Shown: one piece after another, positions 10,132-39,539 of the stretch
Position numbering within the stretch: the stretch's first letter is position 1
How the letters are laid out: each line of letters opens with the position of its first letter
Assembly (NCBI GenBank): GCA_017303355.1
Contig: JAFLCU010000002.1
Location: forward strand, 57,501-121,500
DNA: 64,000 nt
Source: Caulobacterales bacterium
GTDB taxonomy: Bacteria > Pseudomonadota > Alphaproteobacteria > Caulobacterales > Aquidulcibacteraceae
Direction: 5' to 3'
Made by a program: the position numbers and the translations under genes
The notes under the pieces: generated by a model
Database searches by the model: none
What the model saw: only the letters and a program-made list of their open reading frames with translations
Told to the model about the DNA's origin: nothing

Positions 10132-10204
10132 TTGCGGCGCGGGCCTTCGGTTCAAACTGGCGCTTCGATAGGCGCCGGGCCGGGCGAAATCAACTGAACG
10201 CGCC

Positions 10205-12164: not shown

Positions 12165-12171
12165 GGTCCGC

Positions 12172-16143: not shown

Positions 16144-17181
16144 TTGCGGTTTCTGGTGACAGGCGGCGCGGGGTTCATCGGCTCGGCCTTGTGCCGTGCG
16201 CTGGTGCGCGGCGGCGACCACGTGTTGAACCTCGATGCGCTCACCTACGCGGCAAGCCGCGCCGCATTGGCCGAGGTTGAAGCCGCGCCGAACTATCGTT
16301 TCGTGCATGGCGACATTCGCGACCGGGCGCTGCTGGCGGATGTGTTCACCGCTTTCGAGCCGGAAGCGGTGCTGCATCTGGCGGCGGAGAGCCACGTCGA
16401 TCGATCCATCACCGGGCCCGCCGCCTTTGTCCAGACCAACATCGTGGGCGCGCAGATTTTGCTCGACGCCGCGCGCGCGCATTGGGAGGGGTTGCACGGC
16501 GGTGCGCGCGATGCGTTTCGCTTCGTCCACGTCTCCACCGATGAGGTGTTCGGCTCGCTCGGCGAGGAGGGCGCCTTCGTGGAGACGACACGCTACGATC
16601 CGCGTTCGCCTTATTCGGCGAGCAAGGCGGCCTCGGATCATCTGGTCAGCGCGTGGCGCCATACCTATGGTTTGCCGACGCTGATCTCCAATTGCTCCAA
16701 CAATTACGGCCCATTCCAATTCCCCGAGAAATTCATCCCGATGATGATCATCTCGGCGCTGCGCGGTTTGCCGCTGCCGGTTTATGGCGATGGCGGGAAT
16801 GTGCGTGATTGGTTGTTCGTGGACGATCACGTCGCCGCGCTTTCGGCGATCGCGCGTGCGGGACGCGTGGGCGAGACCTATAATGTCGGCGGGCGCAGCG
16901 AACGGCGCAATGTGGATGTCGCACGCGAGATCCTGGCGCATGTGCATGAATTGGCGCCGGGCGGAAGCCAATCCGAGATTCAATTCGTCCAGGATCGCCC
17001 CGGTCATGATCGGCGCTACGCGATCGATTGCACCAAGATCGAGACCGAGCTTGGCTGGCGCGCGGCGGAGACGTTTGAGAGCGGTTTGCGTCGCACCGTC
17101 GAATGGTACGTGGCCCGCCGCGATTGGTGGGCGCCGATATTGAAGGCGCGCTATGGCGGCGAACGTCTGGGGCTCGCGTGA
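16144..17181 (+). CDS. rfbB: dTDP-glucose 4,6-dehydratase
   Basis: Second step of dTDP-L-rhamnose synthesis: NAD-dependent dehydration of dTDP-glucose to the 4-keto-6-deoxy sugar. The 345-residue protein has TGGAGFIGSALCRALV at residue 7, the catalytic STDEVFGSLGE (Thr, Asp, Glu), YSASKAASDHL (Tyr-x3-Lys) and SNCSNNYGPFQFPEKFIPMM, all diagnostic. Start is TTG at 16144, six bases after GGAGG at 16133-16137; no ATG fits as well. Its TGA overlaps the rfbC ATG (TGATG), giving translational coupling. Confidence 0.95.
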   Translation: MRFLVTGGAGFIGSALCRALVRGGDHVLNLDALTYAASRAALAEVEAAPNYRFVHGDIRDRALLADVFTAFEPEAVLHLAAESHVDRSITGPAAFVQTNIVGAQILLDAARAHWEGLHGGARDAFRFVHVSTDEVFGSLGEEGAFVETTRYDPRSPYSASKAASDHLVSAWRHTYGLPTLISNCSNNYGPFQFPEKFIPMMIISALRGLPLPVYGDGGNVRDWLFVDDHVAALSAIARAGRVGETYNVGGRSERRNVDVAREILAHVHELAPGGSQSEIQFVQDRPGHDRRYAIDCTKIETELGWRAAETFESGLRRTVEWYVARRDWWAPILKARYGGERLGLA

Positions 17182-17732
17182 TGCGGATCGACCGCGCCGC
17201 CATCCCAGATGTGCTTATCATCCGCCCAGCCAAGCGCGGCGACGAGCGTGGGTTTTTCTCGGAAACGTTCAAACGCGCGGCGCTGGCCGAGGCCGGCGTC
17301 ACGCACGATTGGGTGCAGGACAATCACGCGTTTTCCGCGCGGCGCGGCGTCGTGCGTGGTCTGCATCTTCAGCGTCCGCCCCATGCCCAGGCGAAATTGC
17401 TGCGTGTGCTGCGCGGCGCCATCTTTGATGTCGCCGTGGATATCAGGCGTGCATCGCTCACCTATGGGCGCCATGTGGCGTTGGAAATGAGCGCCGACGA
17501 TTGGACGCAAATCTATGTGCCGCCGGGCTTCGCGCATGGCTATTGCACGCTCACCGAAGGGGCCGAGGTGCTTTACAAGGTCAGCGCCGATTATGCGCCC
17601 GCCGATGAAGCCGGTTTGGCGTGGAACGATCCCGATCTCGCCATCGATTGGCCGATCCGCGCCGACGAAGCGATCGTGAACGCGCGCGACCTGAACTGGC
17701 CGCGCTTCAGCGCGTTCAATTCACCGTTCTGA
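17181..17732 (+). CDS. rfbC: dTDP-4-dehydrorhamnose 3,5-epimerase
   Basis: Third step of dTDP-L-rhamnose synthesis, double epimerisation of the 4-keto sugar by a cupin-like enzyme. The protein (183 residues) has DERGFFSETFK, DNHAFSARRGVVRGLHLQ (catalytic His at about 62) and KLLRVLRGAIFDVAVDIR. The catalytic Tyr is in FAHGYCTLTEGAEVLYKVSADY (about 130-140). Overlaps rfbB at the start and the convergent rfbD by 12 bases at its end. Confidence 0.95.
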   Translation: MRIDRAAIPDVLIIRPAKRGDERGFFSETFKRAALAEAGVTHDWVQDNHAFSARRGVVRGLHLQRPPHAQAKLLRVLRGAIFDVAVDIRRASLTYGRHVALEMSADDWTQIYVPPGFAHGYCTLTEGAEVLYKVSADYAPADEAGLAWNDPDLAIDWPIRADEAIVNARDLNWPRFSAFNSPF

Positions 17733-18584
17733 AAGCAGGCACTGCGCCAACGCCTCGCGCCACGGCTTTGGCGTAAATCCCATGCCGATGATCTTGTCGC
17801 TGTTCAGCCTTGAATTGAGCGGCCGGCGCGCGGGCGTCGGATAAGCGTGCGTTGCGATGCGGTGCACGCTTACATCGCGTCCGGCTTCGGCGAACACCGC
17901 TTCGGCGAGATCGGCCCAACTCGCATCGTCCGCGCCGGCGAAATGCAGCAGCCCGCGCGTCACGGGATCGCGATCGAGCGCACGCAACGCAAGACCCAGG
18001 CAACATTCCGCCAGATCGCACGCCCAGGTTGGTCGCCCGATCTGATCAGCAACGACGTTTACCTCGCGCCGCGTCTCCGCGAGCCTCAGCATCGTACGCA
18101 CAAAGTTTGCCCCGTGCGCGGCGAAAATCCAGGAGGTGCGAATAATGGCGGCATGCGCATCACTCTCCAAAACGGCGTGCTCGCCCGCCAGCTTTGAAAC
18201 CCCATAGACGTTCAGCGGAGCGGTCGCATCCGCTTCCTCGTAAGCCGCGTTCTTGGCGCCGTCGAAGACATAATCCGTGGATAGATGGATGAGCGGCGCG
18301 CCTAGCCTGGCGCATGCGTTGGCGATCTCGCGCGGCGCATCGCCATTGAGGGCGAAGGCCGCATCAGGCTCGGATTCCGCCGCATCCACGGCGGTGAAGG
18401 CGGCGGCGTTGATCACGACCGAGGGCGCGGATTCGCGTAAAACCAAGCTAATTTGATCGATCTCGCGCAAATCAAGCTGATCGCGCCCGAGCGCCACAAT
18501 CTCAAAGCCGGCCGGCGGCGCGAGGCGTTGCAGCTCTGTCGCGAGCTGTCCGTGGCGGCCAAGGATGAGGATACGGTGGGGCAT
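17721..18584 (-). CDS. rfbD: dTDP-4-dehydrorhamnose reductase
   Basis: Last step of dTDP-L-rhamnose synthesis: NAD(P)H reduction of the 4-keto group. The 287-residue SDR has ILILGRHGQLATELQRLAP (the family's GxxGQLG motif, here GRHGQLATE), VINAAAFTAVDAAESEPDAA, HLSTDYVFDGAK and YGVSKLAGE, which form the Thr-Asp-Tyr and Tyr-x3-Lys active site. It is on the opposite strand to rfbBC, an unusual split. The DUF2793 gene lies divergently upstream, 83 bases away. Confidence 0.95.
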   Translation of the reverse strand: MPHRILILGRHGQLATELQRLAPPAGFEIVALGRDQLDLREIDQISLVLRESAPSVVINAAAFTAVDAAESEPDAAFALNGDAPREIANACARLGAPLIHLSTDYVFDGAKNAAYEEADATAPLNVYGVSKLAGEHAVLESDAHAAIIRTSWIFAAHGANFVRTMLRLAETRREVNVVADQIGRPTWACDLAECCLGLALRALDRDPVTRGLLHFAGADDASWADLAEAVFAEAGRDVSVHRIATHAYPTPARRPLNSRLNSDKIIGMGFTPKPWREALAQCLLSER

Positions 18585-18667
18585 GAGAAGCGCGTTGGCG
18601 TGTGGATAGAGGCGAACAAATCCGACCGAGTGGAAGTCGAGCGATACTGGCGCTCCAAGGAGCGAAC

Positions 18668-19483
18668 ATGAACCAACAAACCACCCGCCTGCAAATGCCC
18701 TTTCTTCAATCCGGCCAAGCGCAGAAGCACATCAGCGTAAATGAGAGCCTGCTACGGCTTGATGCACTCGTCCAGCTCGCGGCGTTGTCGATGACGATGA
18801 CCACGCAGCCAGCGTCGCCCAGCGACGGCGATATCTACATCCTGCCCAGCGGCAAGACCGGCGCCGATTGGGGCGCGATGGCGAACGGTGCGCTGGCCTA
18901 TTACCGCGATGGCGCCTGGGAATCGCTGGCGCCGCGCGAAGGCTATGTCGCCCATGTCGCCGACGCCGATCAGATCGCGATCTATTCGGGCGCCGCATGG
19001 CAGCCCTTGCTTGCCGCGCTCGGCGGCTGGCGTGTGCTGGCGCAATCGTCCGTCGCGGCATCGCTCACGGGATCGACGGCGGAAACCACGTTGGCGACGA
19101 TTTCCGTGCCAGGCGGCGCGATGGGCGCCAACGGGCGCCTGCGCGTGACCGCGCTCTGGTCGGTGACGAACAACGCCAACAACAAGACGCTGCGCGCCCG
19201 CTTGGGCGGGCTCTCGGGCACGGCGTTTCAGTCCGTGGTGCTCACCGCGAGCGCGAGCTTCCGCAGCCAATGCGAGATCGCCAATCGCAACAATCAAGCA
19301 AGCCAAGTCGGCGCCAACGCCTCGCTTGGCGGCGGTGGTTGGTCGGCGACGGGCGCGGCGGTCACTACGGCGACCATCAACACGGCGTCGGCCGCGAACC
19401 TCGTGATCAGCGGCCAACTCGCCAATGCTGGCGACAGCATCGTGCTTGAAGGTTATCTGGTGGAACTGGTCTATGGCGCCTAG
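18668..19483 (+). CDS. DUF2793 protein, phage tail/GTA-like
   Basis: A 271-residue protein. The first half (about residues 8-112) is the DUF2793 domain: TTRLQMPFLQSGQAQKHIS, then SPSDGDIYILPSG and YRDGAWESLAPREGYVAHV. DUF2793 is found in phage tails and in gene transfer agent-like particles of Rhodobacterales. The C-terminal half is Ser/Thr/Ala/Asn-rich and beta-rich (SVAASLTGSTAETTLATISV to LVISGQLANAGDSIVLEGYLVEL), like a jelly-roll receptor-binding or tail-fibre tip. No other phage gene lies near. It sits between rfbD and rfbA, both on the opposite strand, and its end overlaps rfbA by four bases. It may be a captured tail gene (a moron) or a host surface protein built on a tail domain. No signal peptide. 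Confidence 0.8.
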   Translation: MNQQTTRLQMPFLQSGQAQKHISVNESLLRLDALVQLAALSMTMTTQPASPSDGDIYILPSGKTGADWGAMANGALAYYRDGAWESLAPREGYVAHVADADQIAIYSGAAWQPLLAALGGWRVLAQSSVAASLTGSTAETTLATISVPGGAMGANGRLRVTALWSVTNNANNKTLRARLGGLSGTAFQSVVLTASASFRSQCEIANRNNQASQVGANASLGGGGWSATGAAVTTATINTASAANLVISGQLANAGDSIVLEGYLVELVYGA

Positions 19484-20355
19484 GCGCGATGCGATTGGGC
19501 GAGATCGATGAGATAGCGACCGTACTCGCTTGATCCGATCTCGCGGCCGAGTTTTTCCAGTTGCGCGGCGTCGATGAAGCCTTGCGAGAAAGCAACCTCC
19601 TCGGGGCTGGCGATGACGAGGCCTTGGCGATGTTGGATCGCCTTCACGAACGCGGACGCCTCGTGCAGGCTGTCGTGCGTACCCGTGTCGAGCCAGGCGA
19701 AGCCGCGGCCAAGTCGCTCCACATTGGCTTCGCCGCGCTCGAGATAGAGCCGGTTGAGATCGGTGATCTCCAATTCACCGCGCGCGCTGGGCGCCAAGCT
19801 TGCCGCGTATTCGCTGGCCTTGCCGTCGTAGAGATAGAGCCCAGTGACGGCCCAGTCCGACTTTGGCTGCGCCGGCTTTTCCTCGATTCCGATCGCGCGC
19901 TCACGCGCGTCGAATTCGAGCACGCCGTAGCGCTCCGGATCGCTCACGCGGTAGGCAAACAGCGTCGCCCCCGTGAGCGCGGCGCGGGCGTGGCGCAAGC
20001 GCTCGACTAGGCCGTGGCCGAAGAAGAGGTTGTCGCCAAGGATCAGCGCTGAGGGCTCGCCCGCTACGAAATCGCGGCCCACGCGATAAGCGTCGGCCAG
20101 CCCGCGCGGGGCGTCTTGCGTGGCGAAGCCGAGGGAAACGCCCCATTGGCGTCCGTCGCCCAGAACGCGTTGAAACAAGGGCAAATCGTGCGGCGTTGAG
20201 ATGATCAGGATGTCCCGCACGCCCATCATCATAAGCGTGGTCAGCGGATAGTAGATCATCGGCTTGTCGAAAACCGGCAGCAATTGCTTGCTGATCGCGC
20301 GCGTGGCCGGGAAGAGGCGGCTGCCGGTACCGCCCGCGAGCACTATTCCCTTCAT
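19480..20355 (-). CDS. rfbA: Glucose-1-phosphate thymidylyltransferase
   Basis: First step of dTDP-L-rhamnose synthesis: joins dTTP and glucose-1-phosphate. The 291-residue nucleotidyltransferase has LAGGTGSRLFPATRAISKQL at residue 6, the conserved IYYPLTTLMMMGVRDILIIST, GDNLFFGHGL and FEEKPAQPKSDWAVTGLYLYD-like sequence, all in the RmlA order. The start ATG at 20355 is followed upstream by an AT-rich, probably promoter-bearing gap shared with the divergent gene at 20574. Confidence 0.95.
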   Translation of the reverse strand: MKGIVLAGGTGSRLFPATRAISKQLLPVFDKPMIYYPLTTLMMMGVRDILIISTPHDLPLFQRVLGDGRQWGVSLGFATQDAPRGLADAYRVGRDFVAGEPSALILGDNLFFGHGLVERLRHARAALTGATLFAYRVSDPERYGVLEFDARERAIGIEEKPAQPKSDWAVTGLYLYDGKASEYAASLAPSARGELEITDLNRLYLERGEANVERLGRGFAWLDTGTHDSLHEASAFVKAIQHRQGLVIASPEEVAFSQGFIDAAQLEKLGREIGSSEYGRYLIDLAQSHRA

Positions 20356-20573: not shown

Positions 20574-21482
20574 ATGTCGGGTGGGGTTATTCTCGTATTG
20601 CACGGCCATGCGGACGCGGTTTACGCGGCCAATTTGGCGCGCGCGCTGGCGCCGCTGTCCGCCGTCGCGGTGCGCATTGACGATCCTTCGGCTGGCCCAA
20701 TCCACCTTGGCGCCGGCGCCACTTGCATGGTGGTGTGGACGCCGCGTTTCGCTTCGGAATGCGATCTGCCGGCATTGCTCGGCACGCTTCAAGATAGCTT
20801 CTCCATCGTCTGCGCCTATCGCTGCCAAGTGGCGGATGCGCTGCGGTATCGCGTCCGTGACATCGTCGATATTTGCGGCATCCCGGCGACGGACGCACAA
20901 AACTTGCGCGACCTGCTCGGCGCCCAAGCTGAGCGGCCGATGCGGATGCCCGCGCAAATCGCCGCCGCGTCGATCGCCGCCGCGCCCGCGCGCGGTAACG
21001 CGATGCTGGCGCGCAGCGCCCTGAGCCTGACCGCCACCTTGGCGATCGCCGGCGCCGTGTCACCGATCGTCATCGAGCGCGCGGCCGCCACCAGCCGCGT
21101 CGATGCGACGTCATCGTCGCAAGAGCTGCTGACGAATGCGCCAGCGCAAGCGGCTGAAGCTGAAACGGCCGATGTGGCTGTGTTCGACGAAAGCGACGAT
21201 CTGCTCTCAAGTGCGCTCTCGCGCGATTTGCTGGCGCGGTCGCAGGCCACGGCTTTCGCGCCGGCGGACGCGCCTGTGCTGCGGCAGGCGTCGTTTGAGC
21301 GCGCGCCGTTCCGGAATTACGCCGCTGAAGCGATGGCGCTGGTCGAGGCCGAGGCGCCCGGCCAATTGAGCATGCTGCAGCCGCTTGACGCCGTGCGCGC
21401 GGAACTCGGGCCGCGCAAGGAGCGCCAACTGGAGCAGGCTTCGATCTCGCTCAATGCGCGCGACGCCAAAACCGACGTTTGA
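20574..21482 (+). CDS. Hypothetical membrane protein with TIR-like N-terminus
   Basis: A 302-residue protein. Residues 1-110 have the alternating strand/helix pattern of TIR/SEFIR-type domains: VILVLHGHADAVYAANLARAL, then a strand AVAVRIDD and CMVVWTPRFASECDLPALL. A clear catalytic Glu is not obvious and the family call is only a suggestion. A membrane helix follows at about 147-166 (SALSLTATLAIAGAVSPIVI). The C-terminal 130 residues are acidic, Ala-rich and probably periplasmic or unstructured. It precedes the HAD/GT2 module by 176 bases. I do not know its function; a sensor or a chain-length-type envelope protein are possible. Confidence 0.6.
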   Translation: MSGGVILVLHGHADAVYAANLARALAPLSAVAVRIDDPSAGPIHLGAGATCMVVWTPRFASECDLPALLGTLQDSFSIVCAYRCQVADALRYRVRDIVDICGIPATDAQNLRDLLGAQAERPMRMPAQIAAASIAAAPARGNAMLARSALSLTATLAIAGAVSPIVIERAAATSRVDATSSSQELLTNAPAQAAEAETADVAVFDESDDLLSSALSRDLLARSQATAFAPADAPVLRQASFERAPFRNYAAEAMALVEAEAPGQLSMLQPLDAVRAELGPRKERQLEQASISLNARDAKTDV

Positions 21483-21658: not shown

Positions 21659-22543
21659 ATGCCTGAGCCCGAAATCTATCGTTTCTCGCCGATTTCCCGC
21701 CTGCTGCGGAGCGCGCCCTCGCGCATCGATCTCGCCCGGAAATCAGTGGAATTGCGCGAGGCGCTGCAGGCCGCGTTCGACGCCTCGGGCGCGGACGTGC
21801 TCTCGCTCGACGTGTTCGACACGCTGCTATTGCGCGACAATCAATCCGAAGCGCGGCGCTTTTGGGAACTCTCCAAGCTGATCCGCAAGGAACTCATCGA
21901 TTCAAAAGCGCACCCGCGCGCCGCCGCTCTGAGCGTGGAGGATTTCCTGCTGGCGCGGGTCGAGGGAATGCGTGTGAGCTATCGCACGCGCAAGCCTGTG
22001 AAGACGTGCTGCGAAGGCGTGCTCGACGATGTGACTAAGATCGCGCGCCGCGCTCTTGGTCTGTCGGCAAGCGTCGACAAGCATTTCATCGCCACCGAGA
22101 TCGTTTACGAAGCCAGCGTTCTCGCCATCAACGACGCCGTGCTGGATTTGGCGCGCGCGGTGAAAGCCAAGGGCGGACGCGTGGTGCTTGTGAGCGACAT
22201 GTATCTGCGCGGCGAACACATTGGCGCGATCCTGGAAAAGGTCGATTCCGGCGCCGCGAAGATCGTCGACCACATCTTTTCCAGCGGCGATCTTGTGGTC
22301 AGCAAGCGCGCCGGCCGCATCTTTCGCGAAATCGAGCGCCGCTTGGAGCTTGGCCCAAGCGCGTTCTTTCATATCGGCGACTCGCTTCTGGGCGACGTCT
22401 CCAGGCCGCGGGAGGCCGGATGGTCGGCGCTGCATTTCCCGGTGTCCGACGCCGAAGCGCAAGCGCGCGAGGCCGATGTCGCGGCGTTTATCGATGAGAT
22501 GCACGCGTTGGGGCTCAACGTTTCCGATTGGGCGAAGGTGTGA
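21659..22543 (+). CDS. HAD-superfamily hydrolase-like protein of a glycan locus
   Basis: A 294-residue protein. The HAD nucleophile motif is LSLDVFDTLLLRD (Asp51), motif II is VVLVSDMYL, the lysine motif is LVVSKRAGRIF and motif III is FFHIGDSLLGDV, so all four catalytic motifs are intact. The long helical insert between motifs I and II (about 60-150) forms the cap. It resembles the N-terminal part of the large COG5610-like HAD proteins of capsule and O-antigen clusters. The ATG at 21659 is chosen; a TTG at 21629 is possible. Its stop overlaps the next start (TGATG), so the next gene, likely carrying the remainder of that architecture, is translationally coupled. Confidence 0.8.
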   Translation: MPEPEIYRFSPISRLLRSAPSRIDLARKSVELREALQAAFDASGADVLSLDVFDTLLLRDNQSEARRFWELSKLIRKELIDSKAHPRAAALSVEDFLLARVEGMRVSYRTRKPVKTCCEGVLDDVTKIARRALGLSASVDKHFIATEIVYEASVLAINDAVLDLARAVKAKGGRVVLVSDMYLRGEHIGAILEKVDSGAAKIVDHIFSSGDLVVSKRAGRIFREIERRLELGPSAFFHIGDSLLGDVSRPREAGWSALHFPVSDAEAQAREADVAAFIDEMHALGLNVSDWAKV

Positions 22544-25116
22544 TGCTGGACAAAACCCAAGCGACGGACGCGCCGTACGAATTCGGCTATCGCAAGCTCG
22601 GCCCTGTCGTCGCCGATTATTGCGCGCGACTGCTGGCGCATGCGCTATCTTTCGAGCGCGAGCAGGACGGCAAGGTGCTGTTCGTCGCTCGCGCCGGCGT
22701 GCGCATTCGCACAGCGCTTGAGGCGTTCGCGGCGACCGCTGAAATCGATTTGCCGACGCGCGCGGATTATCTTTGGGCCTCGCGACTGATGGTGGCGAAG
22801 GGCGTGTGGCGGCGCAGCCGCGCCCGCGCGCTTCAGGTGCTGGGCAAGGAATTCGCCTATGCGCCGCTGAAGGATTTCGTGGCGGCGATGTTTCGGCACG
22901 AAGGTTTGCCGCGCGATCTCGACCTGAACGATCCGGCGCTGGCGCAGCGCGCTTCCAATCTTGAAGCGTTTTTCGCGTCAGGAGGCCCCGCCGCGCGCGC
23001 GGTGGATCAGCATCTCGTCGAGCAATCGGAATTGTTCGACGCTTATATCGCGAAATTGCTCGGCGATCATGAGCTCGCGCTGCTGATCGACACCGGCTGG
23101 CAGGGCACCGCCCAATCCATGCTCGATGAGGCGTTTCCCGACGTGACCTGGTGGGGCGCGTATTTTGGACGTTTCTCGACCGACGCGACGGACAAGCGCG
23201 GCTGGTCGCGCATGATCGGCGTCGTCACCGAGCACGGGCAATTCGATCCCGCGTGGCCGGAAAGCTGTGTCGTATTGCATCGGCACATGATCGAGCACCT
23301 GTTTCAGCCGACTGGCCTCAGCATCGAGCGTCTCGCGCCCGGCGCCGATGGCGTAATCTCCTCGCCCGAGGCGGCGAGTGTGTTGCTGGACAAAGTCGAT
23401 CGCGAAAACTCGCCGATGTTCGCGGGCGTTCTGGACTATCTCGCGAAATTGCCGGATGGCGTGGGGCCAGCGGCGCTGCGGGCGCGGGCGCACACGGAAT
23501 GGCGCAACATCGCCCGCGCTGTCGTGCTGCCCAGCAAGGACGATGTCGAGGTCTTCGCCGACATCACGCGGTCGGCGGATTTCGGGCGTTCAATCGAGGT
23601 GCCGCTTCTGCTGCCCACGCGCAACCGCCATCGCGATGACAGCCCGGAGGCGCGCGTGCGCGACTCGCTCTGGCATGCTGGCCAACTCGCGCTTGAGTAC
23701 CCGCAAGAGATCGCGCAGCCCATGCAGCGCAAGATTGCCGGCATTGGCCGCGGCGATTTGAGCGAGAAGCAAAAGCCGGCGCGCAAGGCGGCGCGGGAAC
23801 AAGCCGGCGCCCGCCCCAAAGTGGCGATCATCACCCGCACCTTGGATCGGCAAATCTTCCTGAAGCGTGCGCTAGCCAGCGTCGCGTCGCAGACCTTCAC
23901 CGATTACGTGCATGTCGTCGTCAACGATGGCGGCGACAATGACGCGGCGCGCGAAACCATCGAGGCGGCTTCCGTCGATCTCGATCGGCTGCTTCTGGTC
24001 GATAACGTCGTCAATCGCGGCATGGAGGCGGCCTCCAATATCGCGATCAGCAGCTGCGATAGCGATTTCATCGTCATCCACGACGACGACGACACCTGGG
24101 AGCCGACGTTCCTTGAAAAGACCGTCTCATTTCTCGAAAGCTCGCGGGGGCGTCATTATGACGGCGTTATCACGCGCTCGACCTATGTATCGGAATCGGT
24201 GACGCCGACAGGCATCGTCACGCACGGCTCTGGCCCATACAATGGCTGGGTCGAAACCGTGCACTTGCACGAAATGGCGGTGCAGAATTTCTTCCCGCCG
24301 ATCGGATTTCTCTTCCGCCGCTCGCGCTATGACGCCATCGGCGGCTTTGACGAACGCTATCCGGTGCTCGGCGATTGGGATTTCAATCTCCGCTTCCTGA
24401 GCGAGTCCAACATCGCCGTCCTGCCGGAATCGCTGGCGAACTATCACCACCGCGACCGTGGCGACACCGCGATCTTCGGTAATTCCGTGATCGCCGACCG
24501 GCACAAACACCTCGAATACTCAGCCGTCGTCCGCAACAATCTCGTGCGCTATCTCTCCGAACGGGGACGCCAGGCTGAAGCCTCCATGATCGGGCTTGGC
24601 ATCTTGCTGGGTGAAGAGCGCGATCTGGGCCGGCGCACCGTGCAGAAGCTCGATGCGCTTGTCGGTGGCGGCGCAATGCCCGCCGCGCAACATGTCGGCG
24701 TCGTCCATCACGGTTCGCACAATGCCGACGCGATGTGGATCGCCACGCAACGTCTTGCGCAAATCATTGCGCGCGGGGATGTCGTGGCGCTGGCTGAAGT
24801 CGGGCTGGCGTCCGATCCGCGCGACATACGCCAGCGTGTGATGCGCATCCTCGCGCGCGTCGTTGGCCTTGCGCGCCCGATATTCGCTGCGACCGATGCC
24901 GATCTTTCGAAGACGCCGCAGGCGATCGCGAAACTCGTGGCGCTGCACCGCGATCCGTACCGTGCGATGCCGCCGCCGGCCGATTTCGATGAAATCCGCT
25001 ACCTGCGCGACAATCCGGACGTCGCCACCGCTATCACGCGCGGCGAGCTGACCTCCGGGTTCGAGCATTATTTCTACAACGGGCGCCAGGAAGGCCGCGC
25101 GCGACCATCGCGCTAG
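22543..25116 (+). CDS. Large fusion: COG5610-like region + GT2 + NPDV-repeat tail
   Basis: An 857-residue protein. Residues 1-415 resemble the C-terminal part of HAD-linked capsule proteins (COG5610-type): SFEREQDGKVLFVARAGVRI and LLIDTGWQGTAQSMLDEAFP, with no motif I. Residues about 421-645 form a GT2 domain: KVAIITRTLDRQIFLKRALA, VVVNDGGDNDAARE, FIVIHDDDDTWEPTF (metal-binding Asp cluster) and GGFDERYPVLGDWDFNLRFL. Residues 809-848 hold the motif DEIRYLRDNPDV...HYFYNGRQEGR, a repeat (YLxxNPDV, HYxxxGxxEGR) seen in alphaproteobacterial glycosyltransferases and secreted surface proteins. The start overlaps the HAD stop. The substrate is unknown. Confidence 0.8.
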   Translation: MLDKTQATDAPYEFGYRKLGPVVADYCARLLAHALSFEREQDGKVLFVARAGVRIRTALEAFAATAEIDLPTRADYLWASRLMVAKGVWRRSRARALQVLGKEFAYAPLKDFVAAMFRHEGLPRDLDLNDPALAQRASNLEAFFASGGPAARAVDQHLVEQSELFDAYIAKLLGDHELALLIDTGWQGTAQSMLDEAFPDVTWWGAYFGRFSTDATDKRGWSRMIGVVTEHGQFDPAWPESCVVLHRHMIEHLFQPTGLSIERLAPGADGVISSPEAASVLLDKVDRENSPMFAGVLDYLAKLPDGVGPAALRARAHTEWRNIARAVVLPSKDDVEVFADITRSADFGRSIEVPLLLPTRNRHRDDSPEARVRDSLWHAGQLALEYPQEIAQPMQRKIAGIGRGDLSEKQKPARKAAREQAGARPKVAIITRTLDRQIFLKRALASVASQTFTDYVHVVVNDGGDNDAARETIEAASVDLDRLLLVDNVVNRGMEAASNIAISSCDSDFIVIHDDDDTWEPTFLEKTVSFLESSRGRHYDGVITRSTYVSESVTPTGIVTHGSGPYNGWVETVHLHEMAVQNFFPPIGFLFRRSRYDAIGGFDERYPVLGDWDFNLRFLSESNIAVLPESLANYHHRDRGDTAIFGNSVIADRHKHLEYSAVVRNNLVRYLSERGRQAEASMIGLGILLGEERDLGRRTVQKLDALVGGGAMPAAQHVGVVHHGSHNADAMWIATQRLAQIIARGDVVALAEVGLASDPRDIRQRVMRILARVVGLARPIFAATDADLSKTPQAIAKLVALHRDPYRAMPPPADFDEIRYLRDNPDVATAITRGELTSGFEHYFYNGRQEGRARPSR

Positions 25117-25155
25117 GTCCTGCAATCGCCATTTAGTCAAACTATATGAGTGGGC

Positions 25156-26109
25156 ATGAAGCTCGACTGGCTCAATCCTCAGCTTACGCCCTCCAGCTTG
25201 AGCGAAGCGGGGCGCGAAGCGTTTGATGTCGGCGCCTTTTTCCCGTTCACGCTCAACGCCTATTCGATGGTGCATTACGCGCCTGTCATTGAGCGTATCC
25301 TCGCCGGCTTGAGCGTCCGGCGCATTGTCGAGGTCGGCGTCTTTCAGGGTGATCTCTCGGTTTACATCCTCGATTTGGCGCGCAAGGCGAACGCCGCTGC
25401 TGATTTCGTCGACATTGCGTTCAAGCCGGAGGTGCGCGCGCGCATCGCCCAGGCGGCGGGCGACACGCCTGTGTGTTTCCATGAATGCGCATCGGTCGAC
25501 GCATTGGGCGCCATCGATCCGATGGATTTCGTCTTCCTGGACGGCGATCACAATTACGAGACTGTCGAACAGGAATTGGCGCTTATCGCGGCGGCGGCGG
25601 GTAAGCGCATAGTCTTGATGCACGATGTCGGCTGGCCTTGGGGCAGGCGGGATGGCGCTTACGCACCGGCGCGTTTGGCGGATCCTGACGCCTACAAGGC
25701 CGGCGAGCTGACGCCCTTCTCGGATCGGATCGTCGAAGAGTTTGGCTTGCCGTTTCAACCGGTAAAGCTCAGGGAAGGCGGCCCCCGCAACGGCGTTCTA
25801 ACGGCCGCCGAGGATTTTCGCGCCGCGCGTGGTGCGCGCTGGCGCTATTGGTCCATCCCCCTGTTTTTCGGTCTCGGCGTGCTTTGGGATGGCGAAGCCG
25901 TCACGGTGGAGGAGGATATGCACCTCCTGGAGATCGGGCGTGCGATGCAAGCGGCGGCGCCGCTTATGGCCAGCGCCGAACTCAATCGCCTGATGATGCT
26001 GATCAAGCTGCAGAGTGCAGGCGTCATCTGGAAACGCCAGCGCGAACGCATTATCGAACTGGAATCGAGATTGGCCGCGAGCCAAGCGAAGGTGAACAAT
26101 GTCGTTTGA
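25156..26109 (+). CDS. Class I SAM methyltransferase (Methyltransf_24 type)
   Basis: A 317-residue protein. The SAM-binding motif IVEVGVFQGDLSVYILDLA (about residue 55) and VFLDGDHNYETVEQELALIA (about 125) are the two signatures of the Methyltransf_24 family, common in polysaccharide and cephalosporin-hydroxylase-like enzymes. LMHDVGWPWGRRDGAYAPAR supplies the catalytic His-Asp region. The C-terminus (about 250-317) is helical and coiled-coil-like, ending ERIIELESRLAASQAKVNNVV, as for proteins that dimerise or bind a partner. The next gene starts within its last 11 bases, so both are cotranslated. It probably methylates a sugar or glycan end; the acceptor is unknown. Confidence 0.82.
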   Translation: MKLDWLNPQLTPSSLSEAGREAFDVGAFFPFTLNAYSMVHYAPVIERILAGLSVRRIVEVGVFQGDLSVYILDLARKANAAADFVDIAFKPEVRARIAQAAGDTPVCFHECASVDALGAIDPMDFVFLDGDHNYETVEQELALIAAAAGKRIVLMHDVGWPWGRRDGAYAPARLADPDAYKAGELTPFSDRIVEEFGLPFQPVKLREGGPRNGVLTAAEDFRAARGARWRYWSIPLFFGLGVLWDGEAVTVEEDMHLLEIGRAMQAAAPLMASAELNRLMMLIKLQSAGVIWKRQRERIIELESRLAASQAKVNNVV

Positions 26110-26944
26110 GAAAAGCGCATACATTCTCGACCAAGAGAAGCGCGCCGCCGAGCACAATGCCTCGATGGCGAAGATGGAGGCGGCTGTACGCGCCACGCAG
26201 GCGCTGACGCCAGCTGAGCTTCCGCCCGAATGGATGATGAACACGATCGGCAGCCACGCCGCCGCGCATTTCAAGAACACCGCATGCTGGACGTTCACGG
26301 AGCTCGTACGCCGGGGCCGCCTCAGTAGCGCATCGCGCGTTGTCGATATCGGCAGCGGCTGCGGGCGCATGGCCTTGCCATTCTCGTATCTGATCGAGGA
26401 TGGCGAATATTACGGCACGGACGTTTTCCGCGAAGGCGTCGATTGGTGCACGCAGAACATTTCGCCCCGCAACCCGGCGTTCAAGTTCTGCTTCCAGGAC
26501 GTGGCGAAGAATTATTATTTCAAGGACGCAGCCGGCGAAGGCAACAAGATGGGTTTGCCGTTCGTCAAAGATAGTTCGATCGATTTTGTGTTCGCCATCT
26601 CGGTCTTTACGCACCTGATCGAGTACGACGCCGTGCAATATCTGCGCGAGATCGCCCGCGTGCTCGATAAGGACGGAATCGCCTATCTCACGACCTTCAA
26701 CATCGACCGCTTCTTCTTCGAGTACGTACGCAATACGGGCAAGCACGTTGCGGTGCGTGAGGTTTCGCCCGGCCATTATCAGGCGTATGCTGGTCAGGAT
26801 TTTTTTGGCGGCTACACGCCGGAGCGATGGCGTAAGCTCGTTGAAGATGCGGGCATGGAGATCATCGGCTATGATCCTGGCGCCTGGGCGAACAAGCCCG
26901 GGTCGTTGCATTTTCAGGACGTATCCCTGATCGCCAAGAAATAG
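26099..26944 (+). CDS. Class I SAM-dependent methyltransferase
   Basis: A 281-residue methyltransferase. VVDIGSGCGRMALPFSYLIE (about residue 81) is motif I. YYGTDVFREGVDWC supplies the acidic ribose-binding loop and SSIDFVFAISVFTHLIEYDA with LREIARVLDKDGIAYLTTFN gives motifs post-I to III of the Methyltransf_11/25 group. The N-terminus is helical (EKSAYILDQEKRAAEHNASM). The ATG overlaps the preceding gene by 11 bases. It looks like one of a pair of modifying enzymes for a surface glycan; O- or N-methylation cannot be told apart. Confidence 0.85.
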   Translation: MSFEKSAYILDQEKRAAEHNASMAKMEAAVRATQALTPAELPPEWMMNTIGSHAAAHFKNTACWTFTELVRRGRLSSASRVVDIGSGCGRMALPFSYLIEDGEYYGTDVFREGVDWCTQNISPRNPAFKFCFQDVAKNYYFKDAAGEGNKMGLPFVKDSSIDFVFAISVFTHLIEYDAVQYLREIARVLDKDGIAYLTTFNIDRFFFEYVRNTGKHVAVREVSPGHYQAYAGQDFFGGYTPERWRKLVEDAGMEIIGYDPGAWANKPGSLHFQDVSLIAKK

Positions 26945-26958
26945 GAAGTGACGGATCA

Positions 26959-27702
26959 TTGACGGAAGCCGCGTGGCAAACGCTGGCGGAATTGTTCGAA
27001 TTTCCGCCCGACCAGGCAGAGTATCTCATCAATTACTCGCCAAGATTCTCGTACGTCTTCGTCGAGAATCCCAAGGCCGGCTGCTCTACGATCAAGCGCA
27101 CGCTCCAATCCATGGAAGCCGAAGGTCGCGGCGTTCAATTGCCGGAGAACGTACACGACAAAGCCAATTCGCCGCTGCAATCGCCTGGGGAGGCCGAGCT
27201 TAGCGCCCGCGAGCTGTTGCGCGCGGCCGATCTGTTTCGCTTCTGTTATGTGCGCAACCCGTTTACGCGGGTGCTCTCGGCCTATCTCGACAAGATCGTC
27301 GAGAATGAATGGGAGCGTGATCGCCTGGCGCCGACGCTGGGTCTATCGCCGGAGCACATTTGCAGCCTCAAAGTGTTCTTGGAGGCTGTCGCGGAGCAGT
27401 CGAACTGGATGCGCGACATCCATTGGCGAACGCAGACAAGTCTGCTCCGGCCGGATGAAATCCCTTACGATTTTGTAGGACGCTTCGAATCGATCGGCGC
27501 AAGCCTGCGGCGCGTGGTGACGCGCGTCTCACCCACCGCATTTGGCGGCGAGAGCGAGCGCGTGGCGTTTCACGCCACAAACGCCGCCCGCAAAGTCGCG
27601 CACTTTATCGGCGCGGAGGAGGCTGCACTCGTTCGCGAGATTTTCGCCGATGACTTCCAGAATTTCGGATACTCGCACGACCCGCACTTCGCGACTGTTT
27701 AA
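26959..27702 (+). CDS. Sulfotransferase family 2 (PAPS-dependent), likely glycan sulfotransferase
   Basis: A 247-residue protein. YVFVENPKAGCSTIKRTLQ (about residue 31) is the 5'-phosphosulfate loop of Sulfotransfer_2 proteins and FRFCYVRNPFTRVLSAYLD (about 93) is the 3'-phosphate-binding motif with the conserved RNPFxRxLSAY. Both are strongly matched. Start is TTG at 26959, about ten bases after AGGAAG. The family transfers sulfate from PAPS to carbohydrate hydroxyls, so the local glycan is probably sulfated. It is 14 bases after the methyltransferase and converges with the large fusion gene, overlapping by four bases. Confidence 0.85.
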   Translation: MTEAAWQTLAELFEFPPDQAEYLINYSPRFSYVFVENPKAGCSTIKRTLQSMEAEGRGVQLPENVHDKANSPLQSPGEAELSARELLRAADLFRFCYVRNPFTRVLSAYLDKIVENEWERDRLAPTLGLSPEHICSLKVFLEAVAEQSNWMRDIHWRTQTSLLRPDEIPYDFVGRFESIGASLRRVVTRVSPTAFGGESERVAFHATNAARKVAHFIGAEEAALVREIFADDFQNFGYSHDPHFATV

Positions 27703-30700
27703 GCCCGTCCATCCATGGCGGCGGAGATTTCCCCGGTGCTGAAGCGCGCGCGCAAGCCGAACTGCTCAATCAATGTCTCAAGATAGGCGCACGCGCGCGG
27801 TGCGATATCGTCCGATGGCGCAAACTCGCGTGCGACATAAGCCTGCATGCGCGCAATCTCCGCCAATTCGGCGAGCCCGAAGCGGGATATGGTGACGCTC
27901 GCGTCGTGGCGGCGGTGATTGTTCAACGCGGTCGGCGTGAAGGCGAGGGCGCCGTGCCGCAGTGCGTTGACGTAAACGCACCAATCGCCAGCGACACGGT
28001 AGCCGCTAATCTCGGTCTCGTGAGAGCGTAGCGCGTTCAGCAAGGCCGCGCGGCGAAACACGACGGCGCTGGCGTTGGGAATTGTGTTCTTGATCGATAA
28101 GCCGTCGCGGACCTCCGTAGGCCCGTCACCGACAAACGCGCGTTTCCATTTGTGCGCGGCGACGTCATGCACATAGTCGAGATAGTCCGGCGCAAGGAGG
28201 TGCCCGTCGCTGCTCACCTGCCGCGATTGCGTCATTGAGAGAACGACGTCACGCCGCTGAAAAGCGGTGGTTGTTGCTTCAAGGAAGTGCGGATCGGCCC
28301 AATCGTCGGCCTCCGCGATCCAGATGACATCGCCTTGCGCCATCTCCGCGCCTCTGCGCCACTGGGCGAAGACGCTGCCGGAATTTTTGGCATTGCGGAC
28401 GATCCGCCAATTGATCGGCGCGCGCGCAAGCACGCGCTCGGCCACGGCGACGCTGTCATCCGTGGAGGCGTCGTCGAGAAATATGATCTCGCGCGGCGCC
28501 AGCGTTTGCGCGAGGATGCTCTCCAGGCGCTGTTCGAGATGATGCGCGTAATTGTAATTTGGCACGACGACGGAAACGCGCGGCGTCTGGACGTTCAGCA
28601 GATCAAGCAAGCCGCCAGCGTAAGTGGAGAAGCCGAACCGCTCGTGCATCAGCGCGCTGCCGGCGGCGCCGGCGGCGGCGATCTGTGTGGCGTCATCCAG
28701 CCACGCCTCGGCCGCCGTCATGAACGTCGCCGCCTCGGCGTCCGCGATCGCCTGGACACAGCCGTGCTCGGAGAGAGACTCGATGCCGCCCGTGCCGCGC
28801 ACCATGATCACCGGCGTGCGCGCCGCGAGCGCTTCGAGTGCGGTCGAAGGAAACGGGTCCTCGCGGGAGGTGAGGGCGTAAATATCCGCGGCCGCGAAAT
28901 AGTCCGATGTGTCTTCCGCAAAGCCGGGAAAATGCAAATTCTCGCCGCGCTGATGCTCGAGATCGGGTGACCGTTTGCCGACCCATACAAAGTGCAAATC
29001 CGGCCATTGTCGGGCGGCCGCCTTCGCCCACGCCGCGAAAATATCGACGCCCTTGCGGGCATCGCCATAGCCAACGCCCAGCGCAATGCGTGCATCCGCG
29101 GGCAAGCGCAACCGTTTTACAAGGCGCGTGCGCGCCTCTCTCTTGGCGTCGTCGTCGCGCAGAACGCCTGCTTTGTATAATCCCTGCGGCAGTACATGCG
29201 CATTGCGCCAAGCCGCGATTTGCAGCGCCTCGCGCACGCGATCGCGCACCGCATCGGCGGGAAATACCAATGTTTCGCATAGCTGATCCATCGCGCGCAG
29301 GTCGTCGTGCAAATGCATATCGGCCAGAATCTGCGGCATCTCGTGCACGAGACCGATCATGCGCACGTTGAGTTGTGCGAGTACTGGCGCGAGCCAGCCG
29401 GACGCCGCGCTGTTGACGATCGCATGGCGAAAGCCGCGTTCTGTCAGCGCGCCAAGCGCTGTCTCCACGCTGGCATCCGAAGCCTCGCGGTCCAAAATGG
29501 TAAGCGGGCCCTCGCGTTCAAAATCGGCCGCCAATGCGCCAGGGCCGCCGCCGCTCACACACGCCACTTCAAAGCCAAATTGCCGTTTCAGCGTACGCGC
29601 CAGATTGAGCGCGATGTATTGCGCGCCGTGCTTATGCAGATCATGCGTGACGATGATGATCTTGCGTTGCGCATCGGCGTCGAGCGCCTGGCGTGTTGCT
29701 TCGAGCCACGCATAGCCATGACGTGCATCAGGCTCGAGATAGGCGCCCTCGGCCCATTCGTTCCAGGCGTTGATAAAAACGAGCCGTTCATCCGGTGTCG
29801 TCGCTTGCTGCGCCGTCGCTTGCACGGCCTCCGATAGCCATGCCTTGTACGCCGAAGGCGCTGTGTTCACGAAAACGGCGCCGACATTTGGCCGGCGCGG
29901 GGTGTTATCCCATTGCGGCGTCACGCCGCGAAACAATCGGTATTTCGGCGTCGCGCGCTTGCGCGTGCGCGAGGGTAGGCGCCGCCAATCATAGATCATC
30001 AGATCCGCGCCATCGGCCATGTCAGCGACGAGCTTTGGCTCGGGGCGTAGGCCGAGATTGTTCGGTGGAAATTCCACTGCGGCGTCGAAGCCGTAATGCT
30101 TGGGATCGTCTTTTTCGAACGATTGCGTGTACGCGAGATAGATTTCGCCAATACCGTTCGTGCGCAGCCAGGTGCGCCAGCGGTCCGCCGTTTCGCGCGC
30201 GTTGGGCAGCAGCGCGGGGCGATACACTAGCAAGAGCGGCCGCCCGTCGATGCGGATATAGTTCGGGTTTGCGAAATATTGGCTCACATGGGCGATGAAC
30301 GCGACGTCGTCTTCGGCTGAGTGCGCCTGCGCGATCAGAATTTCACGATCCTTGCCGTCCCAGCGACGCGTCCAGTTCTCGTTGGCCCAGCACAGGCAGA
30401 ACGGAAAACCGATGCTGCTGTTCTGGTGGAAATTCTGGATCGGCGTCTCAAGCAGGCGTTTGCCGGCGAACCAGTAGAAGTAAAAACAGAAGCCGCTGAC
30501 GCCATGCAGCTTCGCCAGCTCCGCTTGGCGGTGCATCACATCGGGATCAGCGGCCAGATCGTAATACCCCAGTTCGCCCGGCATGCGCGGCTGATCGTGG
30601 CTGGCGAAGCGCGGTTGCGCCGCGCGCACTTTTGTCCATTCGGTGAAGCCTTCGCCCCACCACGCGTCATTCTCCGGGATCGGGTGAAACTGCGGCAGAT

Positions 30701-30992
30701 AAAAAGCGATGGCGCGCGCGATCGTCTCGCGCGGCGGCGCGGTGGCGACCAGCGGCACGTACCCATCGAGGCTCGCGTCGATCGCGGGCGCGGCCAGGTC
30801 ATCGACGATGTCGTGCTCGGCTTGCCAGCGTTTGAACACATCGCTCCAGCCGAACAATTTCGGCGCCGTGGCGAACAATCGCGCCGCCAGCCGCCCGCGC
30901 TGCTGCGGACTGAGCGGCAGAGCCCGCCAAGCCGCGCGCGCGAGGCCTGTGAAGGCGCGTTTGGCGCTCTCCTGAAAGGTCACTCGTTGCAT
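27699..30992 (-). CDS. Giant glycan enzyme: GH99-like (WbsX) + GT4 + GT2 fusion
   Basis: A 1097-residue, three-domain protein. About 95-435 is a GH99-like (WbsX) domain: AIAFYLPQFHPIPENDAWWG, EGFTEWTKVRAAQPRF, GFCFYFYWFAGKRLLE and FINAWNEWAEGAYLEPD. About 445-795 is a GT4-like domain with IIIVTHDLHKHGAQYIALNL, ALGVGYGDARKGVDIFAAWA and the E-x7-E region REDPFPSTALEALAA. About 804-1000 is GT2: VSVVVPNYNYAHHLEQRLES, FLDDASTDDS, IWIAEADDWADPHF (DxD). The ATG at 30992 is used; TTG at 30998 is possible. It is a likely multi-step polysaccharide synthase or remodelling protein. The next gene on the right is the ABC exporter on the other strand. Confidence 0.85.
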   Translation of the reverse strand: MQRVTFQESAKRAFTGLARAAWRALPLSPQQRGRLAARLFATAPKLFGWSDVFKRWQAEHDIVDDLAAPAIDASLDGYVPLVATAPPRETIARAIAFYLPQFHPIPENDAWWGEGFTEWTKVRAAQPRFASHDQPRMPGELGYYDLAADPDVMHRQAELAKLHGVSGFCFYFYWFAGKRLLETPIQNFHQNSSIGFPFCLCWANENWTRRWDGKDREILIAQAHSAEDDVAFIAHVSQYFANPNYIRIDGRPLLLVYRPALLPNARETADRWRTWLRTNGIGEIYLAYTQSFEKDDPKHYGFDAAVEFPPNNLGLRPEPKLVADMADGADLMIYDWRRLPSRTRKRATPKYRLFRGVTPQWDNTPRRPNVGAVFVNTAPSAYKAWLSEAVQATAQQATTPDERLVFINAWNEWAEGAYLEPDARHGYAWLEATRQALDADAQRKIIIVTHDLHKHGAQYIALNLARTLKRQFGFEVACVSGGGPGALAADFEREGPLTILDREASDASVETALGALTERGFRHAIVNSAASGWLAPVLAQLNVRMIGLVHEMPQILADMHLHDDLRAMDQLCETLVFPADAVRDRVREALQIAAWRNAHVLPQGLYKAGVLRDDDAKREARTRLVKRLRLPADARIALGVGYGDARKGVDIFAAWAKAAARQWPDLHFVWVGKRSPDLEHQRGENLHFPGFAEDTSDYFAAADIYALTSREDPFPSTALEALAARTPVIMVRGTGGIESLSEHGCVQAIADAEAATFMTAAEAWLDDATQIAAAGAAGSALMHERFGFSTYAGGLLDLLNVQTPRVSVVVPNYNYAHHLEQRLESILAQTLAPREIIFLDDASTDDSVAVAERVLARAPINWRIVRNAKNSGSVFAQWRRGAEMAQGDVIWIAEADDWADPHFLEATTTAFQRRDVVLSMTQSRQVSSDGHLLAPDYLDYVHDVAAHKWKRAFVGDGPTEVRDGLSIKNTIPNASAVVFRRAALLNALRSHETEISGYRVAGDWCVYVNALRHGALAFTPTALNNHRRHDASVTISRFGLAELAEIARMQAYVAREFAPSDDIAPRACAYLETLIEQFGLRARFSTGEISAAMDGRA

Positions 30993-31175
30993 CGGCAAAC
31001 TGGGTGGCTGCTCCGGGCGGTTCGAGACAGGGCATAGCCTGACCGGCGTTTTCTATTCAACGCGCGGCGCTGAAAATGCCGGTCGCGCCCGGTGTGAGCG
31101 CGGCGCTCGACCAAGGCGGGCAAAAGAGACTATTTAGAGCCGCACGCGCCGCGCGCGGGCGCTTGGGGGCTTTGC

Positions 31176-31955
31176 ATGCTGTCCGCCATCGGAGATCTGG
31201 GCAATGGCGTGCTCCAGTGGCGCACCAGCTACAAGCTGGGCGTCCAGGACATCGACCTGCGCTATCGCCGCTCGGTTTTGGGGCCGTTTTGGATCAGCGC
31301 GTCGCTGGTGGCGACCGTGCTGGCGCTGGCGTTCGTGTTTGGCGAGGTGTTCCGTCAGGACTTTGTCGATTACGTCATCTTCCTGGGCGCGGGCCTCTTG
31401 GCGTGGCAACTCATCCTGGCGCTGGTCAATGAGGGCTGCGGCTCTATCGCCGAGCATTCCGCCTTCCTGCAAAATTTGCGCATGCCGCTCAGTGTGATCG
31501 CGGGGCGGATCGTGTTTCGCAACGCCATCGTGTTTGTGCACAATCTGATCGCCATCGTCGGCGTGTTCTTTCTGTTCGGCGCGCACCTGACCTGGACGGC
31601 ACTCTGGGTGTTTCCGGCGGCGCTGATGATCTTGGCGATCGGCTATTTCCTGATCCTAGTGCTCGGGCCGATCTGCGCGCGGTTTCGCGACATCCCGCTC
31701 GTCGTGCAAAGCGCCATGCAAGTGATCTTCTTCATGACGCCGATCTTCTGGCAGCCGAGCGCGATGGCGCACCGCCCGATGCTGACGCTGGCGAACCCCA
31801 TCTATCATTGGATCGAGCTGGTGCGCGCGCCGTTGCTCGGCCACGAAGCGACATGGCTGAACTGGCAGGTCGCGTTCTGGTCCTGCGGCGTGGCGTGCCT
31901 GTTGGCGATCATCACGCTGAGCGTGACGCGCAAGCGTCTCAGCCTGTGGCTTTGA
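31176..31955 (+). CDS. ABC-2 polysaccharide exporter permease (Wzm type)
   Basis: A 259-residue membrane protein with six predicted spans. The N-terminal cytoplasmic segment YKLGVQDIDLRYRRSVLGPF is the conserved pre-membrane motif of RfbA/KpsM/Wzm permeases, and IFFMTPIFWQPSAM near residue 190 is the equally conserved re-entrant region. It pairs with the ATP-binding protein starting 10 bases downstream to move lipid-linked polysaccharide across the inner membrane. Like O-antigen Wzm it has no extra domains. It begins in a gap of about 180 bases from the start of the GH99-like fusion. Confidence 0.92.
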   Translation: MLSAIGDLGNGVLQWRTSYKLGVQDIDLRYRRSVLGPFWISASLVATVLALAFVFGEVFRQDFVDYVIFLGAGLLAWQLILALVNEGCGSIAEHSAFLQNLRMPLSVIAGRIVFRNAIVFVHNLIAIVGVFFLFGAHLTWTALWVFPAALMILAIGYFLILVLGPICARFRDIPLVVQSAMQVIFFMTPIFWQPSAMAHRPMLTLANPIYHWIELVRAPLLGHEATWLNWQVAFWSCGVACLLAIITLSVTRKRLSLWL

Positions 31956-31965
31956 GGGGCGAGCG

Positions 31966-32748
31966 ATGGCGTCTGTTCGTCTCAAGGATGTGAGCTTCTG
32001 GTATCCGGTGTACGATGTCACCGGTCGCTCACTAAAGATTTCTCTGATGCGCCAGTTCGGGCGCAATGCCGAGAAGCAATCAGGCTTCGTCGAGGTTCAG
32101 GCGCTCTCCGGCGTGTCGCTTGAATTGAAGGAGGGCGATCGCATCGGCCTGATCGGGCGCAATGGCGCGGGCAAATCCACGCTGCTGAAGATGTTGGCCG
32201 GCCTCATCCACGCACAGCAGGGCGAGGTGAAAATCCAGGGCCGCGTCGTGCCTTTGATTTCACGTGGCCTCGGCATCCATCCCGAACTCAGTGGTTTCCA
32301 GAACATCGATGTGCCGATGCGCCTGCTTGGCGCCACGGAGGCCGAGATCCGCCGCGCCAAGCAAGACGTGCCGGAATGGTCCGGGCTCGGCGATTTCATC
32401 CATCTGCCGGTGCGTACCTATTCGGACGGCATGCGCGCGCGCCTGCTGTTCGCGATCTGCACGGCGGTGCGCGGCGATATTCTCGTGATGGATGAGTGGC
32501 TGAGCGCGGGCGACGCCGAGTTCGTCAACAAGGCGCAGGCGCGCCTCAATGAGGTGCTGAACGAAGCCCGCATCGTCGTGCTCGCCAGCCACTCGATCGA
32601 GATCATCCGCAAGATGTGCAATCTCGTCTGCTGGATCGAGCGCGGGCAGGTGGTGATGGTCGGCGCGCCGGATATCGTTCTGCCGGCCTACCTCAAGGGC
32701 GCTGAGCAGCCCCTTGAGGTCGCCGACACACGTGTGGTTTCGACCTGA
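31966..32748 (+). CDS. ABC polysaccharide exporter ATPase (Wzt type)
   Basis: A 260-residue ATPase. Walker A GRNGAGKST (about residue 62), the unusual signature TYSDGMRARL in place of LSGGQ as in KpsT/Wzt/TagH proteins, Walker B ILVMDEWLSAGD and the switch LASHSIEIIRKM are all present. The N-terminal WYPVYDVTGRSLKISLMRQF is also typical. It lacks the C-terminal carbohydrate-binding domain that long Wzt proteins use to recognise a terminal modification, so chain-length control may differ. It is coupled to the permease and converges with the RTX protease gene. Confidence 0.92.
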   Translation: MASVRLKDVSFWYPVYDVTGRSLKISLMRQFGRNAEKQSGFVEVQALSGVSLELKEGDRIGLIGRNGAGKSTLLKMLAGLIHAQQGEVKIQGRVVPLISRGLGIHPELSGFQNIDVPMRLLGATEAEIRRAKQDVPEWSGLGDFIHLPVRTYSDGMRARLLFAICTAVRGDILVMDEWLSAGDAEFVNKAQARLNEVLNEARIVVLASHSIEIIRKMCNLVCWIERGQVVMVGAPDIVLPAYLKGAEQPLEVADTRVVST

Positions 32749-39536: not shown

Positions 39537-39539
39537 GTT

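Follow-up and report, generated by a model that had tools for sequence, protein, structure and literature searches.

We think it probable, from sequence comparisons and a structure model, that five adjoining genes at positions 21659-27702 of the window (the whole 64,000-nucleotide stretch of DNA that was analysed) make up a module that assembles and tailors a ribofuranosylated, O-methylated and sulfated surface polysaccharide. In the proposed scheme the gPRT domain of gene 2 would use PRPP to add ribofuranose-5-phosphate to the growing chain, the HAD phosphatase of gene 1 would take off the 5-phosphate and so leave the chain extendable, and the GT2 domain of gene 2 would add the next nucleotide-activated sugar, perhaps L-rhamnose because an rmlBCDA set lies nearby (dTDP-rhamnose being a guess from the neighbours). 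Genes 3 and 4 would O-methylate the glycan, gene 5 would sulfate it, and a Wzm/Wzt pair would export the finished polysaccharide; in this scheme we infer the PRPP donor, the identities of the sugars, the order of the steps, the sites of methylation and sulfation, and export by this particular Wzm/Wzt. All five open reading frames lie on the plus strand, and they and the domains of gene 2 are as follows.

21659..22543, plus strand: gene 1, HAD phosphatase, 294 residues, predicted phosphoribose phosphatase of PRP/CrpP type (PF00702, profile against the PDB, motifs)
22543..25116, plus strand: gene 2, gPRT-GT2-NPDV fusion, 857 residues (Pfam, tail alignment, AlphaFold model)
22543..23742, plus strand: gene 2 residues 1-400, predicted gPRT/CriT-type domain (profile and Foldseek against 7SHG/Bcs3)
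23815..24642, plus strand: gene 2 residues 425-700, GT-A (GT2) domain with HDDDD motif (PF00535 at 4.4e-17, Foldseek)
24985..25113, plus strand: gene 2 residues 815-857, small helical C-terminal tail with NPDV and HYxxxGxxEGR (conservation, model helices)
25156..26109 (a GTG start at 25150 is possible), plus strand: gene 3, SAM methyltransferase MT24 with a short helical C-terminus (PF13578)
26099..26944, plus strand: gene 4, SAM methyltransferase MT11 with a DIGSGCGR motif (PF08241)
26959..27702, plus strand: gene 5, PAPS sulfotransferase with a TTG start (PF03567 at 4.5e-20, intact motifs)

The preliminary description had placed these five genes in a row with joints that overlap or nearly do, and the coordinates bear this out: the four joints comprise two overlaps and two short gaps, namely -1 bp between genes 1 and 2 (a TGATG overlap), +33 bp between genes 2 and 3 (+39 bp from the in-frame ATG at 25156), an 11 bp overlap between genes 3 and 4 (-11 bp), and +14 bp between genes 4 and 5. 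Its list of contents stands as regards every Pfam family (PF00702, PF00535, PF13578 (Methyltransf_24), PF08241 (Methyltransf_11) and PF03567 (Sulfotransfer_2), each above cut-off, for genes 1 to 5 respectively) and the NPDV/HYxxxGxxEGR tail, but the HAD and the COG5610-like N-terminus of gene 2 had gone unrecognised as a PRP and gPRT pair. The closest PDB relatives of the gene 1 HAD were 7SHG ('Ribofuranosyl transferase') and Bcs3; a profile of nine sequences matched 7SHG at 1.2e-25, over its residues 29-253, and Bcs3 at 1.7e-21, with the next HAD at 7e-9. Motif I of this HAD, DVFDT, aligns to FDIFDT of Bcs3, and of the HAD DxD only the first Asp is retained, as has been reported for CrpP (PMC10299916); the invariant residues are D51, F53, D54, T55, S179-D180, K216 and G240-D241. 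From these comparisons we predict that gene 1 encodes the PRP half of a PRPP-dependent ribofuranosyltransferase.

No Pfam or NCBIfam model matched the first 400 residues of gene 2 (domain X), and a single-sequence phmmer search of gene 2 against the PDB found the GT-A domain alone and missed the gPRT half, so a profile was needed; the domain X profile matched the gPRT half of 7SHG (residues 303-550) at 5.6e-8 with 8 sequences and at 1.5e-8 with 22. An AlphaFold model of domain X (pLDDT 78.8, pTM 0.80), when searched against the whole PDB with Foldseek, matched chains of Bcs3 and 7SHG only (E 4e-7 to 4.1e-6, probability 1.00), the next PDB match falling at a probability of 0.21. In other bacteria HAD and domain X occur as fused proteins of 644-688 residues (L022, L055, L057, L071, L102 and L103), and elsewhere as neighbouring genes; the COG5610-like N-terminus is thus the predicted partner domain of the HAD, while COG5610 as a keyword yielded no literature. 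Sequence and structure model agree in predicting that the gene 2 N-terminus is the gPRT half, of gPRT/CriT type, of a PRPP-dependent ribofuranosyltransferase. In characterised enzymes the gPRT moves Ribf-5-P from PRPP and the PRP strips the phosphate to leave a beta-ribofuranose (PMC11127046, PMC11231755, PMC10299916, PMC12096443), and since the gene 1 HAD and the gene 2 N-terminus correspond to these two halves, we predict that ribofuranose is part of the glycan.

The reading that competes best with this is that the gPRT has diverged to use another donor or is a non-catalytic scaffold, with the HAD acting on some other phosphate ester and the glycan methylated and sulfated yet free of ribofuranose, and we consider it unlikely. 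In its favour are the low identity to characterised gPRTs (~15% in structural alignment) and the loss of an acid; it also counts against our main reading that two structures account for all of the domain's matches. CriT has two acids around the PRPP ribose, D680 and E818, reported as conserved in all homologs of the CriT study (PMC10299916); the counterpart of D680 is Ala51 in 12/12 gPRT-GT2 proteins and Gly in 10 distinct others (the locus L074 duplicates L056 and was counted once), an assignment made by alignment rather than superposition. The same position is Glu in 7SHG, which reads SREG where our protein and its aligned relatives read RAG or RGG. As the D680-equivalent acid is replaced by Ala or Gly in all the aligned sequences, binding of PRPP by gene 2 may differ from that by CriT. 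Against the rival, the counterpart of E818, D183 (an equivalence drawn from the 7SHG alignment and the motif, not from superposition), is invariant across all aligned gPRT sequences, as are R50 and S80-R81 of the Arg/Ser PRPP-pocket motifs and E251, and the HAD both retains its CrpP-specific motif and is adjacent in every locus, which would be hard to explain if the gPRT were dead. The separate genes and the missing acid lead us to class the HAD and gPRT pair as a variant rather than a prototypical member, one that most likely works in the same way as the known ribofuranosyltransferases.

An AlphaFold model of the whole gene 2 protein (pLDDT 79) has distinct gPRT, GT-A and tail regions, the tail being formed of helices. 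Foldseek matches of the GT-A domain were generic and included RmlT and SpsA among other GT-A proteins. The NPDV/HYFYNGRQEGR tail is kept in complete gPRT-GT2 proteins (in L008 the contig end cuts the protein off before the tail), and a search for a second copy in the genome found none. At L007 the gPRT-GT2-NPDV protein (7875-12184, plus strand) carries an additional C-terminal extension of 174 residues and is followed by a polysaccharide pyruvyltransferase, and on a Chelatococcus plasmid (L023) a DUF2793 protein (12619-13170, minus strand) lies near a GT2-NPDV gene.

The gene 5 sulfotransferase has intact motifs (ENPKAGCSTIK and RNPFTRVLSAYLDK), and both the PKAGCSTIK 5'-phosphosulfate loop and the 3'-phosphate-binding RNPFTRVLSAYLDK are conserved in six sulfotransferase homologs. 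PF03567 occurs a single time in the whole genome, inside the five-gene run, and the genome encodes an APS kinase (PF01583, 3.2e-68), that is, a predicted supply of PAPS. PDB sequence searches with the gene 5 sulfotransferase and with MT24 found no relatives, and that with MT11 gave weak generic matches alone, one of them to a sugar O-methyltransferase. L006 and a Nitrospirales MAG (L009) both have MT24 homologs; gene 3 ends in ~20 coiled-coil-like residues, a stretch that is longer in L009.

The earlier suggestion of a coupled gene set that makes a methylated and sulfated glycan gains support from a second species of the genus (L006, genome G045): the five genes all recur there, in unchanged order, with amino-acid identities of 67, 73, 69, 72 and 65%. 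The association of the five genes is more than chance; their order is kept in L006 while wzm/wzt have switched to the other side of the block. Full-length gene 2 was found in just 2 of 60 genomes of the family (the source genome and L006), making the unit patchy.

Searches of other alphaproteobacterial genomes and of genome contigs brought the gPRT-GT2 fusion loci to 12, all alphaproteobacterial (L008 and L098 being short), and a separate HAD gene lies directly upstream in 12/12. A sulfotransferase of one of two Pfam families is near the core in eight of these, six with PF03567 (the window, L006, L069, L072, L099 and L101) and L097 and L100 with the other family (PF13469/PF00685). MT11 is near the core in five (the window, L006, L097, L100 and L101), and FkbM-type methyltransferases are found by the core in L069 and L100. 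The PF03567 type was present at 6/12 gPRT-GT2 loci vs 0/11 loci of other gPRT architectures (p=0.014), these loci being related by descent and in some cases incomplete; for any sulfotransferase the counts were 8/12 vs 3/11 (p=0.10, not significant) and for MT11 5/12 vs 1/11 (p=0.15), again among loci that are not independent.

The arrangement of the partners varies: L069 has the order HAD, gPRT-GT2, FkbM, sulfotransferase, one unknown gene and rmlCBDA, L101 has rmlCBDA, HAD, gPRT-GT2, MT11, sulfotransferase and a KpsE/KpsT-type exporter, and in L007 a pyruvyltransferase is present instead. The Nitrospirales MAG L009 holds MT24, MT11, a fusion of a sulfotransferase-motif domain to a GT2, a HAD and a stand-alone domain X together. 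The swapping of different families into the same slot favours function over simple inheritance. The L009 fusion (6445-8490, plus strand) has its PKTGTTSLQ motif domain joined to the GT2, and its N-terminal part is without a Pfam match; the 376-residue protein between the sulfotransferase and rmlC of L069 (4833-5963, minus strand) has no Pfam match, contains DID and may be an unrecognised glycosyltransferase.

The neighbouring genes that bear on sugar supply and export are as follows.

16144-17181, plus strand: rmlB (TIGR01181, above cut-off)
17172-17732, plus strand: rmlC (TIGR01221, above cut-off)
17721-18584, minus strand: rmlD (TIGR01214, above cut-off)
19480-20355, minus strand: rmlA (TIGR01207, above cut-off)
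27699..30998, minus strand (convergent): three-domain WbsX-GT4-GT2 glycosyltransferase, 1099 residues (PF14307, PF13692, PF00535)
31176-31955, plus strand: Wzm, ABC polysaccharide exporter of galactan-export type (NF050109/NF050108 best NCBIfam, below cut-off)
31966-32748, plus strand: Wzt of the same exporter, 260 residues (NF050109/NF050108 best NCBIfam, below cut-off)

The rmlBCDA set is complete within 16144-20355 and all four genes pass NCBIfam equivalog cut-offs. A DUF2793 protein (18602-19483, plus strand) is encoded between rmlD and rmlA, and just upstream of the HAD gene is a 302-residue ORF (20574-21482, plus strand) that has no Pfam match and whose start is TIR-like by eye. The WbsX-GT4-GT2 neighbour is kept in both species (64% identity in L006), and L006 has an additional 559-residue WbsX protein (5265-6944, plus strand) directly upstream of its HAD gene. 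Beyond wzt the window carries, on the minus strand at 32760-36203 and 38244-42580, a serralysin-like RTX metalloprotease and then TolC/HlyD/ABC type I secretion genes.

These RTX and secretion genes downstream, together with the occurrence of RTX proteins by the core in 5/12 loci (the window, L006, L072, L097 and L100), would suit a module that decorates a target other than the Wzm/Wzt polysaccharide, for instance an O-glycan carried by secreted RTX proteins, or an S-layer, which we judge quite improbable: the RTX association is not significant (5/12 vs 1/11 controls), Wzm/Wzt or KpsM/KpsE-type export genes are near the core in several loci, and the gPRT enzymes of the cited papers act on LPS O-antigen or capsule (PMC11127046, PMC11231755, PMC10299916, PMC12096443). 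The weakest alternative, that the run holds an HAD and an ordinary GT2 fusion and that methylation and sulfation cap the end of the chain to control its length, in the manner of WbdD-type methyltransferases, drew on the two methyltransferases adjoining an ABC exporter and on the coiled-coil-like end of gene 3 with its longer L009 counterpart, but is most improbable given that a C-terminal carbohydrate-binding module, the usual companion of chain terminators (PMC11127046), was sought in Wzt and none was found (ABC_tran being its sole domain above cut-off), that no recognition of a chain-end cap is expected of export by such a bare ATPase, that the Pfam matches include no WbdD-type kinase domain and show methyltransferase domains alone with a short C-terminal helix of ~20 residues in place of a long coiled coil, that the HAD/N-terminus pair matches ribofuranosyltransferases, and that methyltransferase types vary in L069, L097 and L100 while the core stays. 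Chain-end capping, which the preliminary description had entertained, was accordingly rejected on the grounds of the Wzt and the missing kinase.

The ribofuranosyl module that we favour assigns a predicted function to a domain that has no Pfam or NCBIfam match and would usually be annotated just as 'HAD-associated' or as the 'N-terminus of a glycosyltransferase', and it predicts ribofuranose in alphaproteobacterial surface glycans where annotation would show just a GT2. It would also bring ribofuranosylation together with sulfation and methylation within a gene set that recurs, a possible route to sulfated furanose polysaccharides, and the invariant loss of the PRPP-contacting acid makes the catalytic need for that residue testable. 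More speculatively, and with little confidence, these proteins might represent an alphaproteobacterial branch that lost the acid (Ala51) and in which a separate HAD and a polymerase-like gPRT-GT2 enzyme serve solely to make sulfated and methylated ribofuranosyl polysaccharides; the sulfate might then sit on the ribose or beside it, and the secreted RTX proteins encoded nearby might attach to the glycan surface in a calcium-dependent way.

The combination had been described as matching no known system, and this needs dividing: the ribose-adding chemistry is already described (PMC10299916, PMC11231755, PMC12096443), while for the split, GT2-fused gPRT with a sulfotransferase and methyltransferases we found no description in a literature search whose scope did not take in the 2022 JBC survey that defined PRP/gPRT. 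Both halves of 7SHG, the Thermobacillus composti polysaccharide ribofuranosyltransferase (PRP-gPRT), match ours in the same order (Foldseek probability 1.00); however, 7SHG is a single polypeptide, whereas in the window PRP and gPRT each have their own gene and the gPRT is joined to a GT2 and the NPDV tail. The separation of PRP and gPRT, seen in 12/12 loci, thus sets these proteins apart from the characterised examples compared, in which they form one polypeptide.

In Bcs3 of Haemophilus influenzae type b (CroT-CrpP-CriT; 8A0C/8A0M) the CrpP part is matched by our HAD, with a shared DxFDT, the CriT part is matched by the gPRT model, and, as proposed here, the protein also holds another transferase that extends the ribose; Bcs3 differs in being one chain with a GT-B CroT at its N-terminus, while here the gPRT is N-terminal to a GT-A, the phosphatase is separate and D680 is replaced by Ala. 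Bcs3 still polymerises when divided into CroT/CrpP and CriT pieces (PMC10299916), so such splitting is biochemically tolerable. Campylobacter jejuni Cj1432 (GT-PRP-gPRT) likewise combines PRPP-dependent ribose-5-P transfer, HAD dephosphorylation and a fused second GT, but is a single protein whose partner GT and order differ from ours (PMC12096443). The capsule cluster of Cobetia marina KMM 1449 resembles the window in having an ABC-exported, dTDP-rhamnose polysaccharide and PAPS sulfotransferase genes, although the published repeat, as far as the portion of the source consulted describes it, is Rha2S-Man with phosphoglycerol and without ribose (PMC11766843). In Klebsiella pneumoniae O4/O7 an ABC-exported glycan receives ribofuranose from a gPRT/PRP enzyme (ORF5-O4, ORF7-O7), and in O7 the ribofuranose is combined with dTDP-rhamnose as proposed here; that ribofuranosyltransferase is one polypeptide apart from the Leloir GTs, and sulfation genes are not mentioned in the part of the source drawn on here (PMC11231755). 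By analogy the O7 system, which has rhamnose, ribofuranose and ABC export, comes closest among described systems to the logic predicted for the window.
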